DNA of 64,000 bases from Thermoanaerobacter sp. A7A (GTDB lineage Bacteria; Bacillota; Thermoanaerobacteria; Thermoanaerobacterales; Thermoanaerobacteraceae). This document shows positions 25,257-39,218 of this stretch, piece by piece. A program made the position numbers and the translations under genes. Numbering within the stretch: the first letter of the stretch is position 1; each line of letters begins with the position of its first letter. The notes below the pieces were generated by a model. It did not search any database and was not told where the DNA came from. It worked only from the letters and a program-made list of their open reading frames with translations. The DNA lies in contig NZ_AVAF01000153.1 in assembly GCF_000445185.1 (NCBI RefSeq), positions 1 through 64,000 on the forward strand, given 5' to 3'.

Positions 25257-25700
25257 ATGAAAAAATTCGAATTTAATTTGCAGCCAGTATTAAATTTAAA
25301 AGAACAGTCAGAAAAGATTGAAAAAGAGAAATTAGCAAAGGTCATGGCAGAGATAAATATTCAAAAAGAAGAATTACATAAATTAACTAAACATTTAAAT
25401 GAAATCTTAGAAAAAACAAAAGTGGAGATGAAAGAAGGAACTACTATACATAAAATTCTTGAATCAGATGTGTATGTAAAAAAAATTCAACAGATGATTG
25501 AAGACAAAAAACTTTTAATAAAAAAGCTAGAAAAAGATGCTGATTTGATAAGAGAAAATCTTTTAAAAGTTTCAAAAGAGAAAAAGGCATTAGAGAATCT
25601 CAAGGAAAAGAGGTTTTCTGAGTACCAATACTTAATGGCTATAGAACAAAATAAATTTGTAGATGAACAAATAAGTTTTAGAGTGGCTAAATCCTATTAG
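25257..25700 (+). CDS. fliJ: Flagellar export chaperone FliJ
   Basis: A 147-residue, almost wholly alpha-helical, Lys/Glu-rich coiled-coil protein beginning 'MKKFEFNLQPVLNLKEQSEK', the family start. FliJ inserts into the FliI ring and recycles chaperones. Position directly after fliI supports the call. Confidence 0.93.
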   Translation: MKKFEFNLQPVLNLKEQSEKIEKEKLAKVMAEINIQKEELHKLTKHLNEILEKTKVEMKEGTTIHKILESDVYVKKIQQMIEDKKLLIKKLEKDADLIRENLLKVSKEKKALENLKEKRFSEYQYLMAIEQNKFVDEQISFRVAKSY

Positions 25701-25710
25701 GAGGATATAT

Positions 25711-26289
25711 ATGCAAAATCAAGATATACAAACAAAAAGAAACTCCAAAATTTGGCTGATAATTTTAATAATTTTTTTGATACTCGTAGGTGGAATAGTC
25801 TCAGCTGTTTACTTTAATCTATTCGGAAGTCAAACTTTTTTGAAAAAGCAATTAGCTAATGTTCCGGTTTTAGGTAGTTTAATTTCTCCAGTGCCAGTAG
25901 AAGACAAAAATACTCAGATAAATAAATTAACTGACGAATTAAAAGCAAAAGATGAAAAGATTGCTGAGTACGAAACTCAATTGAAAGAAAAAGAAGACCA
26001 AATCAATAGTTTAAAAGCCGAATTGGAAAAAGTTCAAAAGGAGAGCGATTCACTCAAGCAACAGTTAGAAAATAAGCAGACTAACTTGAAAGACATAGCT
26101 AGTTATTATCAAAATATGGATCCGCAAAATGCAGCGCAAATACTCAATAACATGTCAGATGAAGATATAATAAAAATATTGAGGTACATGGATAAAGATA
26201 GTGCTTCAAAGATATTAGAATCATTAAAAGCTGAAAAGGCAGCAAAAATAACAAATATTTTATTGAAAAATGCTACTATGATTCCTTAG
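25711..26289 (+). CDS. MotE-like membrane protein (YlxF position)
   Basis: A 192-residue protein: one transmembrane helix at about 14-36, a coiled coil at 65-128 ('LKEKEDQINSLKAELEKVQK'), then a C-terminal MgtE_N-like helical domain ('MDPQNAAQILNNMSDEDIIKILRYM'). The layout matches the MotE/YlxF group encoded between fliJ and fliK. MotE is a chaperone for MotC in alphaproteobacteria; a role in Bacillota is not established. I give no gene symbol. Confidence 0.85.
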   Translation: MQNQDIQTKRNSKIWLIILIIFLILVGGIVSAVYFNLFGSQTFLKKQLANVPVLGSLISPVPVEDKNTQINKLTDELKAKDEKIAEYETQLKEKEDQINSLKAELEKVQKESDSLKQQLENKQTNLKDIASYYQNMDPQNAAQILNNMSDEDIIKILRYMDKDSASKILESLKAEKAAKITNILLKNATMIP

Positions 26290-26305
26290 AAAGGAGGTGA
26301 AAAGA

Positions 26306-27679
26306 GTGATAGGAGTGGTGCCGGATACTGATTTATTACCATTTAAGATACAGCAGCCAAGGGCTGATAAAACCAAACCAGTTGTAGATTACAAAAAATT
26401 CCCTTCCCCAAAAGATAATAAGGCAAATAAATTTTCAGAAATGTTACAGCAACAGATGGCAATTAATGAAAATAAAGAAAATTCAACGGACAAAGTGGTA
26501 TCTGATGGCAATGTTGAGTTAAATAGTCTTTTTTCAACTACACAATCACTGAAAAAAGAAAAAAATTTAAAATCTTTCCAAACAGAGGATTTATCGTTAG
26601 CAGATGTTTTCAATTGGTTACAGCAGTTAATAAATGGATTAAACGTGGCAATTCAAAAGGATGATGGCAAGGAGTTAAGTGAAAAACAAAATTTTTATGT
26701 GGAATTGCAAAAGGAAGTACAAAAACTGATACAAGATTTTTTAAATAATGGGGTTTTGAATGTTGATAAACTATCGCAAAAAATAAGCCAGTTGCTAGAA
26801 GAAAAACTTGGTGTTAAGTTACAACCAGATGCAATAGCTACGGCAATTAAAAGTGACAACTTTAAGGAAGTTTTAAAAGTCTATAGCGATAAAAATGTAG
26901 ATATAAACAACACGAACATTCAGATAACAGACTCAATTGTATTTTCACAACAAGCCATTAAAAAAGATGGGACAGATAATTTAACTCTATTAAATGAAAA
27001 TTTATCTTTGATAGACAATCAGCGTATCCTTGAGGAAAATAAAGAAATCATACCAAAAACAAAGGATTCACAACCTGACTCAAATAGCAAGATTTTGACA
27101 ATTAAAAATGAAAAAAATCTTGGGGAAAATCAGCAATTACAACAAAATGATTTTACGTTTTTGAAAAATGATGGGAAGACTTTTGGAAACCAACTGATTA
27201 ACCACCAAAATTCAAAATTAAAAGAGGTTCCAGAATCGCAAATTTTTGACCAAATAGTAAAGAGTATGAATTTTTCAAAAAACGACATATCTTCTACCAT
27301 AAGTATACAATTAAAACCAGAATTTTTAGGAAAGCTTCAGATAAATCTTAAATCTATAGATGGAAATATTATCGCTACTATAATAACTGATAGCGAAAAA
27401 TTGAAGCATCAAATTGAATCTAATATAGGAATTTTGAATACTCAATTAGATTTAAAGGGAATTAAAATAGACAGTTTTAATGTGACTGTGGATAAAAACA
27501 TGCAGTTTACTTCTCAATACAATGGACAACAGCAAAGTTACAATGACAACTCACAAGAACAAAATTTGCACAGAGCATATGGTGGATATTTACACTATGA
27601 TTTGGCAGAAGCAGAAGAGACAGAAACTTTACAAAGAATTTACAATCTCTCACAAGACCATATAGATGTGAGGGCGTAG
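26306..27679 (+). CDS. fliK: Flagellar hook-length control protein FliK
   Basis: A secreted ruler that switches export from hook to filament proteins. I prefer GTG 26306, five bases after AAGGAGGTGA, over the track's GTG 26297, which lies inside that Shine-Dalgarno; this gives 457 residues. Most of the protein is divergent, polar and Gln/Asn rich. Only the C-terminal domain (about residues 330-400) is conserved: 'SIQLKPEFLGKLQINLKSID' then 'LNTQLDLKGIKIDSFNV'. Confidence 0.92.
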   Translation: MIGVVPDTDLLPFKIQQPRADKTKPVVDYKKFPSPKDNKANKFSEMLQQQMAINENKENSTDKVVSDGNVELNSLFSTTQSLKKEKNLKSFQTEDLSLADVFNWLQQLINGLNVAIQKDDGKELSEKQNFYVELQKEVQKLIQDFLNNGVLNVDKLSQKISQLLEEKLGVKLQPDAIATAIKSDNFKEVLKVYSDKNVDINNTNIQITDSIVFSQQAIKKDGTDNLTLLNENLSLIDNQRILEENKEIIPKTKDSQPDSNSKILTIKNEKNLGENQQLQQNDFTFLKNDGKTFGNQLINHQNSKLKEVPESQIFDQIVKSMNFSKNDISSTISIQLKPEFLGKLQINLKSIDGNIIATIITDSEKLKHQIESNIGILNTQLDLKGIKIDSFNVTVDKNMQFTSQYNGQQQSYNDNSQEQNLHRAYGGYLHYDLAEAEETETLQRIYNLSQDHIDVRA

Positions 27680-34299: not shown

Positions 34300-35082
34300 A
34301 TGGATATAATTCAGTATTTACTTCAAAATGTTCAAATTTTTATATTACTTTTCGTCAGAATGCTGGGTATTTTTATACTTACGCCTTTTTTTGGTACAAA
34401 AAATGTTCCTACTATTTTTAAAATAGGTTTAGGTTTTTTTGCGGCAGTAATTGTTTTTGATACCATGGAACCGGTAGATTTGCAAACAAATAATGTTTTT
34501 GATTACTTTATCGTTGTCATCTCTGAGTTCATTGTAGGACTTGTGATAGGGCTGGCATCTATGATATCCTTTAGCGCTATACATTTAGCCGGTCAGCTGA
34601 TTGATTATCAGTTGGGGTTTGGACTGGTAAACATTTTAGATATTCACAGCGAAACCCAGGTTCCTTTGATGGGAAATTTCATATATATTTTGACAATCCT
34701 TATCTTCATGCTTTTGAATGGTCATTATATATTATTTACAATGTTGGCTAAAAGTGTTGATATAATTCCTGTTGGGAAAGTTGTCTTTAATTTACCTGGT
34801 ATGTCTCAAGTCTTAACAAAAATGGTTTCTGATATGTTTATATTAGGTTTTAAAATAAGTGCTCCTATAATTTTAACAACTCTTTTGACAGATTTAGTTT
34901 TGGGAATAATCTCCCGTACTATACCTCAGCTTAACGTCTTTATGATAGGAATGCCAGCTAAGATTTTTGTTGGAATCTTTACTTTGCTTATTATGTTGCC
35001 AATGTATTTGGCAATTATAGATTTTATGTTTAATGGAATGAATGCTGACATTTTTAGATTAATGAAATTTATGACAAGGTGA
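34300..35082 (+). CDS. fliR: Flagellar export gate protein FliR
   Basis: A 260-residue protein with about six transmembrane segments, including 'VQIFILLFVRMLGIFILTPF', 'IHLAGQLIDYQLGFGLVNIL' and 'VFMIGMPAKIFVGIFTLLI'. Together with FliP and FliQ it forms the export gate. Six bases follow fliQ, and the stop abuts the flhB start region. Confidence 0.95.
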   Translation: MDIIQYLLQNVQIFILLFVRMLGIFILTPFFGTKNVPTIFKIGLGFFAAVIVFDTMEPVDLQTNNVFDYFIVVISEFIVGLVIGLASMISFSAIHLAGQLIDYQLGFGLVNILDIHSETQVPLMGNFIYILTILIFMLLNGHYILFTMLAKSVDIIPVGKVVFNLPGMSQVLTKMVSDMFILGFKISAPIILTTLLTDLVLGIISRTIPQLNVFMIGMPAKIFVGIFTLLIMLPMYLAIIDFMFNGMNADIFRLMKFMTR

Positions 35083-35087
35083 TAGTT

Positions 35088-36170
35088 TTGAGTAAAATAA
35101 ATTTACAATTGTTTGCTGAAGAAAAAACTGAACCAGCTACTCCTAAAAGGCGACAAGATGCAAGAAAAAAAGGGCAGGTCTTCCAAAGCAGAGAAATAAC
35201 TTCTGCTTTAGTAATTGTAGCAGGTTTTTTGGCAGTAAATATACTCGCAATACCTTTTTTAGGAAAAATGATGGCTTTAACAAAGTATTTGCTTTATACC
35301 TATTCTGGAGTTAATGACGATGTTTTTAATATAGTAGGTATACAAAATCTGTTTATATACCTCTTGCAACAAGCAATATCAATAACTATGCCTATAATTT
35401 TATTGATTTTTATTGTTTCTCTTGCATCAACTTATCTCCAAGTAGGCTTTGTATTTACAATTGAGCCCCTTGCCTTTAAGTTGGAAAGATTAAATCCTGT
35501 GGAGGGCTTCAAGAGAATTTTTTCAAAAAGAGCATTGGTAGAATTAGCTAAATCTATTGCTAAAGTGGTAGTTATTTTCTATATAATGTACTCTTTTTTA
35601 GCTTCTCAATATAAAGGTATACCAATGCTTCTTGATATGTCAGTTCAAGATATATTAAAATACGCTTTAAACATACTTTTGGGAATTACTACCAGAATAG
35701 GAATTGTACTTATTTTTCTTGGAGTATTAGATTACTTCTTCCAGTGGAGAGAGTATGAAACAAGCCTTAAAATGAGTAAAGAGGATATAAAGGAAGAGTT
35801 TAAAGAGACGGAAGGAAACCCTCAGATAAAAGCAGAGATAAGAAGAAAACAGCGACAAGTTTCTATGAGAAGAATGATGCAAGACTTAAAAAAAGCGGAT
35901 GTCGTAATAACAAACCCAACTCATCTTGCTGTTGCTCTTATGTACGATAGTAATGTAAATGACGCACCTGTAGTGATAGCTAAAGGGCAAGACATTATTG
36001 CCCTCAGAATAAAAGAAGAAGCTAAGAAGTTAAATATTCCTATAGTTGAGAATAAGCCATTAGCTCAGGCACTGTATAGGTCTACTGAAATAGGAGATAT
36101 GATTCCACCAGAGCTTTATCAAGCTGTAGCTGAAGTTTTGGCTTATGTGTACAGCTTGAAGGGAGAATAG
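35088..36170 (+). CDS. flhB: Flagellar export switch protein FlhB
   Basis: Controls substrate specificity by self-cleavage. I chose TTG 35088 (AAGGTGAT upstream), giving 360 residues starting '[20 protein letters not shown]'. Four transmembrane segments are followed by the cytoplasmic domain with the intact autocleavage motif NPTH at residues 276-279. FlhB itself therefore looks functional, in contrast to the next gene. Confidence 0.95.
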
Positions 36171-36180
36171 GAGGGATAAT

Positions 36181-38203
36181 TTGAAATCCTCTGAGCTTAC
36201 TGTAGCTCTTTTTGTAGTAGGAATAGTCTTGCTCATAATAATTCCTGTATCACCCGTTATCATGGACTTTTTATTAATATTTAACATAACTTTGTCTATA
36301 ATAATACTTTTGACTACTATGTATGTAAAAGATGCTTTAGATTTTTCTATATTTCCTTCTATATTATTAATAACTACTCTTTTGAGACTGGCTCTTAACA
36401 TTTCGAGTACGAGGCTTATTTTAAGCAATGCCTATGCAGGTGGCGTAATACAGGCTTTTGGAAGTTTTGTAATAGGTGGAAATCCAGTTGTCGGATTCAT
36501 TATTTTCTTGATAATTGCAATTGTACAATTTATCGTCATAACCAGAGGAGCAGAGAGAGTATCTGAAGTGTCAGCAAGATTTACTTTGGATGCAATGCCA
36601 GGAAAGCAAATGGCAATAGATGCTGATTTAAACGCAGGCCTTATAACAGAAAAAGAAGCTAGAGAGAGAAGAATGGAAATACAGCAAGAGGCAAAATTTT
36701 ATGGAGCAATGGATGGTGCTAGTAAATTTGTCAAAGGCGATGCAATTGTTTCTATAATTGTTATAATTATAAATATTGTTGCAGGTCTCATTATTGGAAT
36801 GGTAATGAAGGGGATGGATATAAATAGGGCTTTAAATACTTATACTGTTTTAACAGTAGGCGAGGGTTTAGTAAATCAAATACCAGCACTTTTGATATCA
36901 ACTGGCTACTGGAATGATTGTTACTCGTTCAGCTTCTGAGTCAAATTTAGGAGGGGATGTAATAAAGCAGCTCTTCAATCAGCCTAGAATTTTAAAAATA
37001 GCAGCTGGATTGCTCTTTGCACTGGTATTAGTACCTCTTTTACCTAAACTTCCACTTATCTTAATGGGTTCATTGTTTGCATATCTTGGATTTGCAGGGA
37101 CTCAAAAAGTAACAGTAAAAGAAGAAGAACAAGAAGAAAACATAAAAGAGTTAGAGAATATAAGAGATCCTAAGAAAGTATATGAATTATTGCAAATTGA
37201 CCCTATTGAACTGGAATTTGGCTATGAATTGATTCCTCTTGCAAGTGGAGAATTATTAGATAGGATTGTCATGATAAGAAGACAAATTGCTCTTGATTTG
37301 GGTATTGTGGTCCCAATGATTCGTTTAAGAGATAATATTCAATTAAAGCCTAATGAATATGTTATAAAAATTAGAGGGAATGAAATTGCCAGAGGCAAGG
37401 TATATATTGATAGGTATATGGCTATGACAGCAGGAGAAATAGATGAAGATATTTCTGGAATTCGAGAAAGAGAACCAGCTTTTGGATTACCTGCAATTTG
37501 GATAGATGAAAACGAAAAGTCAAAAGCAGAAGCAAGGGGATATACAGTAGTAGATGTTCCTTCTGTTATTGCTACACACCTCACTCATATTATAAAACAG
37601 CATGCCCATGAACTTTTAGGAAGGCAAGAAGTACAGAGTTTAATTGACAATATAAAAGCGACGAATCCTGCATTAATAGAAGAATTAGTACCTAAGATTT
37701 TAACAATAGGTGAAATAGAGAAAGTACTTTCTAACCTTTTAAGAGAGGGGTTATCTATCAGAGATTTAGTTACAATATTGGAGACTTTAGCAGATTATGC
37801 TCCTATTATCCGAGATACAGATGTTTTAACAGAGTATGTAAGACAGGCTTTAGCTCGTGCTATTTCCAGTAAATATGCTGCAGGTGGTAAGATTGAAGTT
37901 ATAACGTTAGATCCAAGTGTTGAACAGTTAATATCCTCCAGTATAACTCAGACAGAACATGGTTCTTATTTAGCATTGGAGCCTTCTTTGGCGCAAAGGG
38001 TTTTAAAAAGTATCCATGAATTAGTAAAAAAGGTAACTTTAAAAGGTGGACAACCTGTAATTCTGACAGCGCCTGTAACTCGATTTTATCTCAGGAAGTT
38101 AGTAGAACAAATTTCTCCCGATATTGTTGTTTTGTCATATAATGAGCTTTTACCAAATATTGAAGTTACATCGGTGGGGACGGTGAGATTAAATGAAAGT
38201 TAA
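36181..38203 (+). pseudogene. flhA: Flagellar export protein FlhA, interrupted by a one-base frameshift
   Basis: Two ORFs (36181-36939 and 36914-38203) are halves of one FlhA. The first has the membrane domain and FHIPEP motif region ('[19 protein letters not shown]') up to 'IPALLIST', then shifts to a nonsense tail and stops. The second resumes with '[20 protein letters not shown]'. Removing one G of the GG at 36904-36905 restores ...[17 protein letters not shown] and a continuous product of about 673 residues, the normal FlhA length. TTG start behind GGAGGGAT. A real frameshift, a sequencing error or recoding are all possible; FlhA is essential for export in motile bacteria. Confidence 0.9.
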
Positions 38204-39218
38204 AAAATATATCGCTAATGACTATCAAGAAGCTTTACGAATGATAAAAGCGGAAATGGGAAGTAACGCTGTAATACTTCATCAGAACAGAATTAAAGAA
38301 AGAGGGATCATAGGACTTTTTAAGAAGAGTAAAGTGGAAGTAATAGCAGCAGTAGAAGATTACCCACCGGTAATCCCTAAGGAAAATATTACAAAAAATG
38401 ATATAAACGAACTTAAAAATCTAATTAAAACTATAACTATCAATAAAAATGGAACGGTTACAGAAGCTAGGGATAAAAATTTAATTTCTAAATTAATAGA
38501 TTATGGAATAGAAAAGGAAGTGTCTCAGTTATTGGGGGAAGGAATTGATGAACTTGATAATAAAGGAATAAAAATTTTAAAGGAACGAATAGATGCTTTT
38601 ATGGGACCTCCTCAAAAATTGAATTCTGAAAAAAGCAAAAAAATTTTGTTCATTGGACCTACTGGAGTGGGGAAAACTACAACCATTGCAAAAATTGCTT
38701 CTAATTTGATATTGAATGAAGGTAAAAAAATAATGCTCGTTACAGCAGACATTTTCAGAATAGCGGCGGTAGACCAGTTGAAAACCTATGGAGAAATTTT
38801 AGGAGTGCCAGTAAGAGTAGTAAATAATATTTTTGAACTTCATAAACTTCAGCCAGAGTTTGAAAAGTACGATGTAGTTTTAATAGATACAGCTGGAAGA
38901 AGCCATAAAGATGAAAAGCGAATAAGTGAATTAAAAACTTTTATCAAATATGCAAACTGTGATGAAACTTTTTTATGCTTGAGTGCTACAACTAAATCGG
39001 AAGATTTAAAAGAAGTAATAGAAAGATATGAATTTGCAGGAAATTATAAGTTAATTTTTACTAAATTAGATGAAACTGATAATTATAGTTCTATTTTAAA
39101 CGCTGTTTACTATTCAGGGCGACCAATTTCTTATTTTACAAATGGACAAATTGTTCCTGATGATATAACTTTAGCAGAAAGCGAAATTATCGTCTTAAGC
39201 ATAGTAAAGGGGAATTAG
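38193..39218 (+). CDS. flhF: SRP-like GTPase FlhF
   Basis: A 341-residue GTPase that sets flagellar position/number. The N-terminal B domain is 'MKVKKYIANDYQEALRMIKA', and the NG domain has P-loop '[15 protein letters not shown]' near residue 154, 'DIFRIAAVDQL' and 'DTAGRSHKD'. ATG overlaps the flhA stop by 11 bases. Confidence 0.96.
   Translation: MKVKKYIANDYQEALRMIKAEMGSNAVILHQNRIKERGIIGLFKKSKVEVIAAVEDYPPVIPKENITKNDINELKNLIKTITINKNGTVTEARDKNLISKLIDYGIEKEVSQLLGEGIDELDNKGIKILKERIDAFMGPPQKLNSEKSKKILFIGPTGVGKTTTIAKIASNLILNEGKKIMLVTADIFRIAAVDQLKTYGEILGVPVRVVNNIFELHKLQPEFEKYDVVLIDTAGRSHKDEKRISELKTFIKYANCDETFLCLSATTKSEDLKEVIERYEFAGNYKLIFTKLDETDNYSSILNAVYYSGRPISYFTNGQIVPDDITLAESEIIVLSIVKGN

Follow-up and report, generated by a model that had tools for sequence, protein, structure and literature searches.

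A single-base insertion splits flhA in the metagenome-derived genome assembly of Thermoanaerobacter sp. A7A

Results

The window analysed here, a stretch of 64,000 nucleotides at the start of contig NZ_AVAF01000153.1 from Thermoanaerobacter sp. A7A, includes a flagellar/chemotaxis operon, with flhA set between flhB and flhF and all three on the forward strand. Upstream, flhA is adjoined by flhB (35079..36170; 363 aa) and downstream by flhF (38193..39218; 341 aa), each equal in length to its counterpart in the closest relative, G004. Instead of forming one continuous FlhA frame of ~670–690 codons, flhA occupies two frames of 252 and 429 aa. Its 5′ part (36181..36939) opens with a TTG start and terminates at a TGA (36937–36939), and its 3′ part (36914..38203) has the ATG at 36914 as its earliest start codon. 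Because a TGA at 36893 shuts the downstream frame and the TGA at 36937–36939 closes the upstream one, both are open only across a forward-strand overlap of 44 nt (36896..36939), to which any +1 shift is confined.

A reading made from the sequence only had taken these overlapping ORFs for the halves of FlhA, and profile searches bear this out, both matching Pfam FHIPEP (PF00771) with E below 1e-130. The 5′ part covers profile positions 1–297 of 657 (E=1.8e-131) and comprises the N-terminal membrane half, that is, residues 1–242 of G004 FlhA followed by ~10 out-of-frame residues. The 3′ part covers positions 229–656 of 657 (E=2.8e-136) and comprises the last two hydrophobic segments, the linker and the cytoplasmic domain (residues 245–673 of G004 FlhA). 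The whole length of the family is thus covered, but split over two frames, with the break at about FlhA residue 242, after approximately the sixth hydrophobic segment as judged by sequence inspection. No second FlhA or other export gate that could serve as a backup was found in the genome.

A DNA match to flhA was present in 30 of 30 relatives searched. For alignment, we used nine genomes of the same genus and nine of the same family, strand-corrected. In every comparison the sole indel within flhA was the extra G of the window at 36904..36905 (forward strand), a base missing from all 18 relatives, each of which carries an uninterrupted flhA frame of at least 680 codons. The comparison with close relatives called for by the sequence-only reading therefore shows the insertion shared by none of them. 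G004 has 98% DNA identity to the window, and its FlhA is 98–99% identical to the two halves; at 673 aa, it also has the length (about 673 residues) that had been forecast for the gene once one G at 36904–36905 is removed. We also examined 80 further flhA loci from other genomes (three end at a contig edge, and a few come from the same genomes as the 18-genome set), and the frame was open through the insertion point in all 80. The insertion-bearing sequence had no exact match in the viral contigs searched and was absent from every other locus examined, being found in its own genome only. The gene order flhB-flhA-flhF is common to the window and the relatives checked. These comparisons confirm that flhA is split by a one-base insertion in the assembly. 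An indel limited to one lineage, with whole orthologues in the relatives, is the pattern of a recent frameshift pseudogene.

The break had been placed in a conserved segment of FlhA. This location holds, the segment in close relatives differing only trivially from the quoted IIVTR. In the conserved IVTR motif of FlhA, G004 itself carries leucine in place of arginine (CGT to CTT, at the codon matching window position 36926), unlike other relatives. A lesion in a neighbouring gene was seen in T. thermocopriae JCM 7501 (L010, L035), where flhB has one base fewer than the window at the position corresponding to 35766, and its frame is cut at ~238 codons, as against ~363–370.

Across 84 kb of the contig compared with G004, flhA was the only frame-broken gene. 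All other operon genes on the contig match G004 in frame, in agreement with the earlier statement that the neighbouring export genes are intact, and the other length differences are start-site extensions, gene-boundary changes or the contig end. Generally poor contig quality was ruled out on this basis, flhA alone being broken in 84 kb. The insertion site lies deep within the 85-kb contig. Elsewhere in the genome, two flagellin genes are whole, as is a gene of the MotA family. Upstream of the flagellar export genes, three adjoining genes (window 25257–27679) share 69–83% amino acid identity with G004, compared with mostly 95–99% for the rest of the contig, marking a locally fast-evolving or recombined stretch.

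Substitutions in flhA were assigned to the window branch (8 synonymous, 3 nonsynonymous) and the G004 branch (11 and 5). With 3 of 11 changes nonsynonymous on the window branch (p about 0.001 against a neutral expectation set at a rough 75% nonsynonymous), the substitution pattern shows purifying selection on flhA in this lineage. An old, decaying pseudogene was rejected, as there is neither relaxed selection nor a further indel in flhA. The rest of the gene being without decay, the lesion, if real, would be recent or very young.

The background rate of such breaks was estimated by comparing ~523 kb of the A7A genome with ~1.69 Mb of G004, of which ~289 kb aligned. Once gene-boundary effects were discounted, the A7A side showed two clean breaks of a gene by one base: the one in flhA and one at C140:1159, in an amino-acid ABC transporter permease whose T-run is one T shorter than that of G004 (154 aa versus 220). 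On the G004 side, one gene carries two one-base indels (C35 region). About two breaks per 289 kb could stem from recent pseudogenes of the ordinary sort or equally from occasional assembly errors, and the rate does not decide between them. The A7A contig with the permease also has a one-base indel at C140:27490, where a CTT/AAG-rich tract lies towards the 3′ end of the gene for a putative flagellar-operon protein; this indel changes the C-terminal tail only (147 aa versus 139 in G004).

Discussion

Two of the readings considered would have the halves of FlhA still yield a working protein. Programmed recoding, whether by +1 ribosomal frameshifting or by transcriptional slippage within 36896–36939, would give full-length FlhA, and both the 44-nt overlap and the purifying selection on the rest of flhA are compatible with it. 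It nevertheless appears very unlikely: predicted RNA structure at the junction is no better than that of shuffled sequence (z = 0.34), inspection by eye, in line with the sequence-only reading, recognised no slippery sequence in the overlap, and 36880–36945 holds no long homopolymer, its longest run being TTTT. Only one stretch resembles a Shine-Dalgarno sequence, TTAGGAGGGG near 36949, and it belongs to ordinary coding sequence that relatives largely share; the AGGAGG motif (~36949) follows the stop, whereas prfB-type shifting has its motif ahead of the stop. Frameshifting of the prfB kind was rejected for want of a slippery motif, an upstream stimulator, downstream structure or conservation, and transcriptional slippage because the junction is without a long A or T run. 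Alternatively, FlhA might function in two pieces, with ribosomes stopping at the TGA ending at 36939 and reinitiating at the ATG at 36914, and the membrane fragments assembling thereafter. Two features speak for it: an ORF overlap that would suit translational coupling and a break lying beyond roughly the sixth hydrophobic segment. Reinitiation is possible in principle, but this ATG is not preceded by a Shine-Dalgarno-like sequence, and we know of no functional split FlhA; we regard this arrangement as the least probable of all. Against both ideas stands the finding that a split flhA occurs in none of the 18 aligned relatives and none of the 80 further loci. There is very little chance that FlhA is made as two separate pieces or via a newly arisen frameshift site with the flagellum still working. 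The earlier judgement that error or true mutation is likelier than programmed shifting is upheld by the relatives that do not carry the insertion and by the lack of structure and slippery motif.

Since the rest of flhA is undecayed, its neighbours are whole and there is no sign of recoding, the isolated break either arose very recently or stems from an assembly error. The draft genome of the heat-loving Thermoanaerobacter sp. A7A was reconstructed from the metagenome of a Tuna oil field (Bass Strait) reservoir as an assembly of 2,614,610 bp in 178 contigs, using 2×100 Illumina paired reads, and the paper reports no culture (PMC3772140). Its authors list flagellar genes, predict a peritrichous organism and state that the same procedure was followed as for a companion genome (PMC3772140), and the method paper that they cite for that genome, from the same project, describes correcting the reads with Blue and assembling them with Velvet at k=41 (PMC3764415). 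An assembly or consensus error, in which the organism's flhA is whole and the extra base was introduced by read correction, by the resolution of the Velvet graph or by the merging of strain variants in the metagenome, is a serious contender, although we place it somewhat below an even chance. It is favoured by reconstruction of the genome from metagenomic 100-bp reads through the Blue and Velvet k=41 procedure, by the otherwise undamaged state of flhA and the remaining operon, and by the prediction of a flagellated organism (PMC3772140); moreover, with the extra base the first ACTG comes to match an ACTGG seven bases on, so that a short-repeat slip is conceivable. On the other side, the site is not a homopolymer, and the A7A side shows just one more clean one-base break in ~289 kb. 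Indel errors outside homopolymers are uncommon in Illumina data, and isolated one-base insertions in unique sequence are seldom seen.

We consider it marginally probable that a single-base insertion in the A7A lineage or population recently disrupted flhA. A real insertion is supported by its uniqueness against nine congeners and nine family members, with the frame open at all 80 further loci, by its position deep in a contig of an Illumina assembly at a site with no run longer than TTTT, and by a genome without a second FlhA. It is weakened by the whole flagellin and MotA-family genes and the purifying selection on flhA, and also by the one other clean break in ~289 kb, a rate that assembly error could equally yield. 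The null allele would have to be very young, and meeting such an allele in the consensus of a natural population is less expected than meeting it in cells cultured in the laboratory. We lean slightly towards a real insertion over an assembly error, given that Illumina data are not prone to errors at a site of this kind, although sequence alone cannot separate the two.

FlhA is established as necessary for flagellar motility, and small indels often cause the loss of flagellar genes. Were the insertion real, ribosomes would halt at the TGA at 36937–36939 and release a 252-aa N-terminal membrane fragment, and the C-terminal half would probably be made poorly or not at all, since no Shine-Dalgarno-like sequence lies just upstream of the ATG at 36914. 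With no whole FlhA, the export gate ring would be expected not to form, and cells of this genotype would be without flagella. The locus would then record that flagella were lost only lately from a subsurface population, in which the other motility genes checked look intact. If the base is an error, it calls for caution in interpreting reading frames in metagenome-assembled genomes. The finding bears chiefly on annotation: the motility prediction made for A7A from its gene list (PMC3772140) hinges on one unconfirmed base.

As a recent mutation or an assembly slip, the break is ordinary either way, and it has parallels in known systems. FlhA/FHIPEP (PF00771) is the flagellar type III export gate protein; the A7A gene resembles it in the match of both halves and in the flhB-flhA-flhF order, and differs in a frame broken at about residue 242. 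In evolving P. protegens, a one-base flhA deletion (H393Q.fsX15) was found in cultured isolates with severely reduced motility, and the flhA frameshift mutant is described as non-motile (PMC8262913). The two cases are alike in a one-base flhA indel within an otherwise whole flagellar set (PMC8262913), but in P. protegens a base is deleted, in cultured isolates whose motility is impaired, whereas in A7A a base is inserted, in a metagenome assembly for which no culture is reported. Closer in taxonomy, the draft genome of T. thermocopriae JCM 7501 offers a second Thermoanaerobacter example of an export-gate gene with an isolated one-base lesion, which differs from that of A7A in affecting flhB and in being a deletion rather than an insertion.
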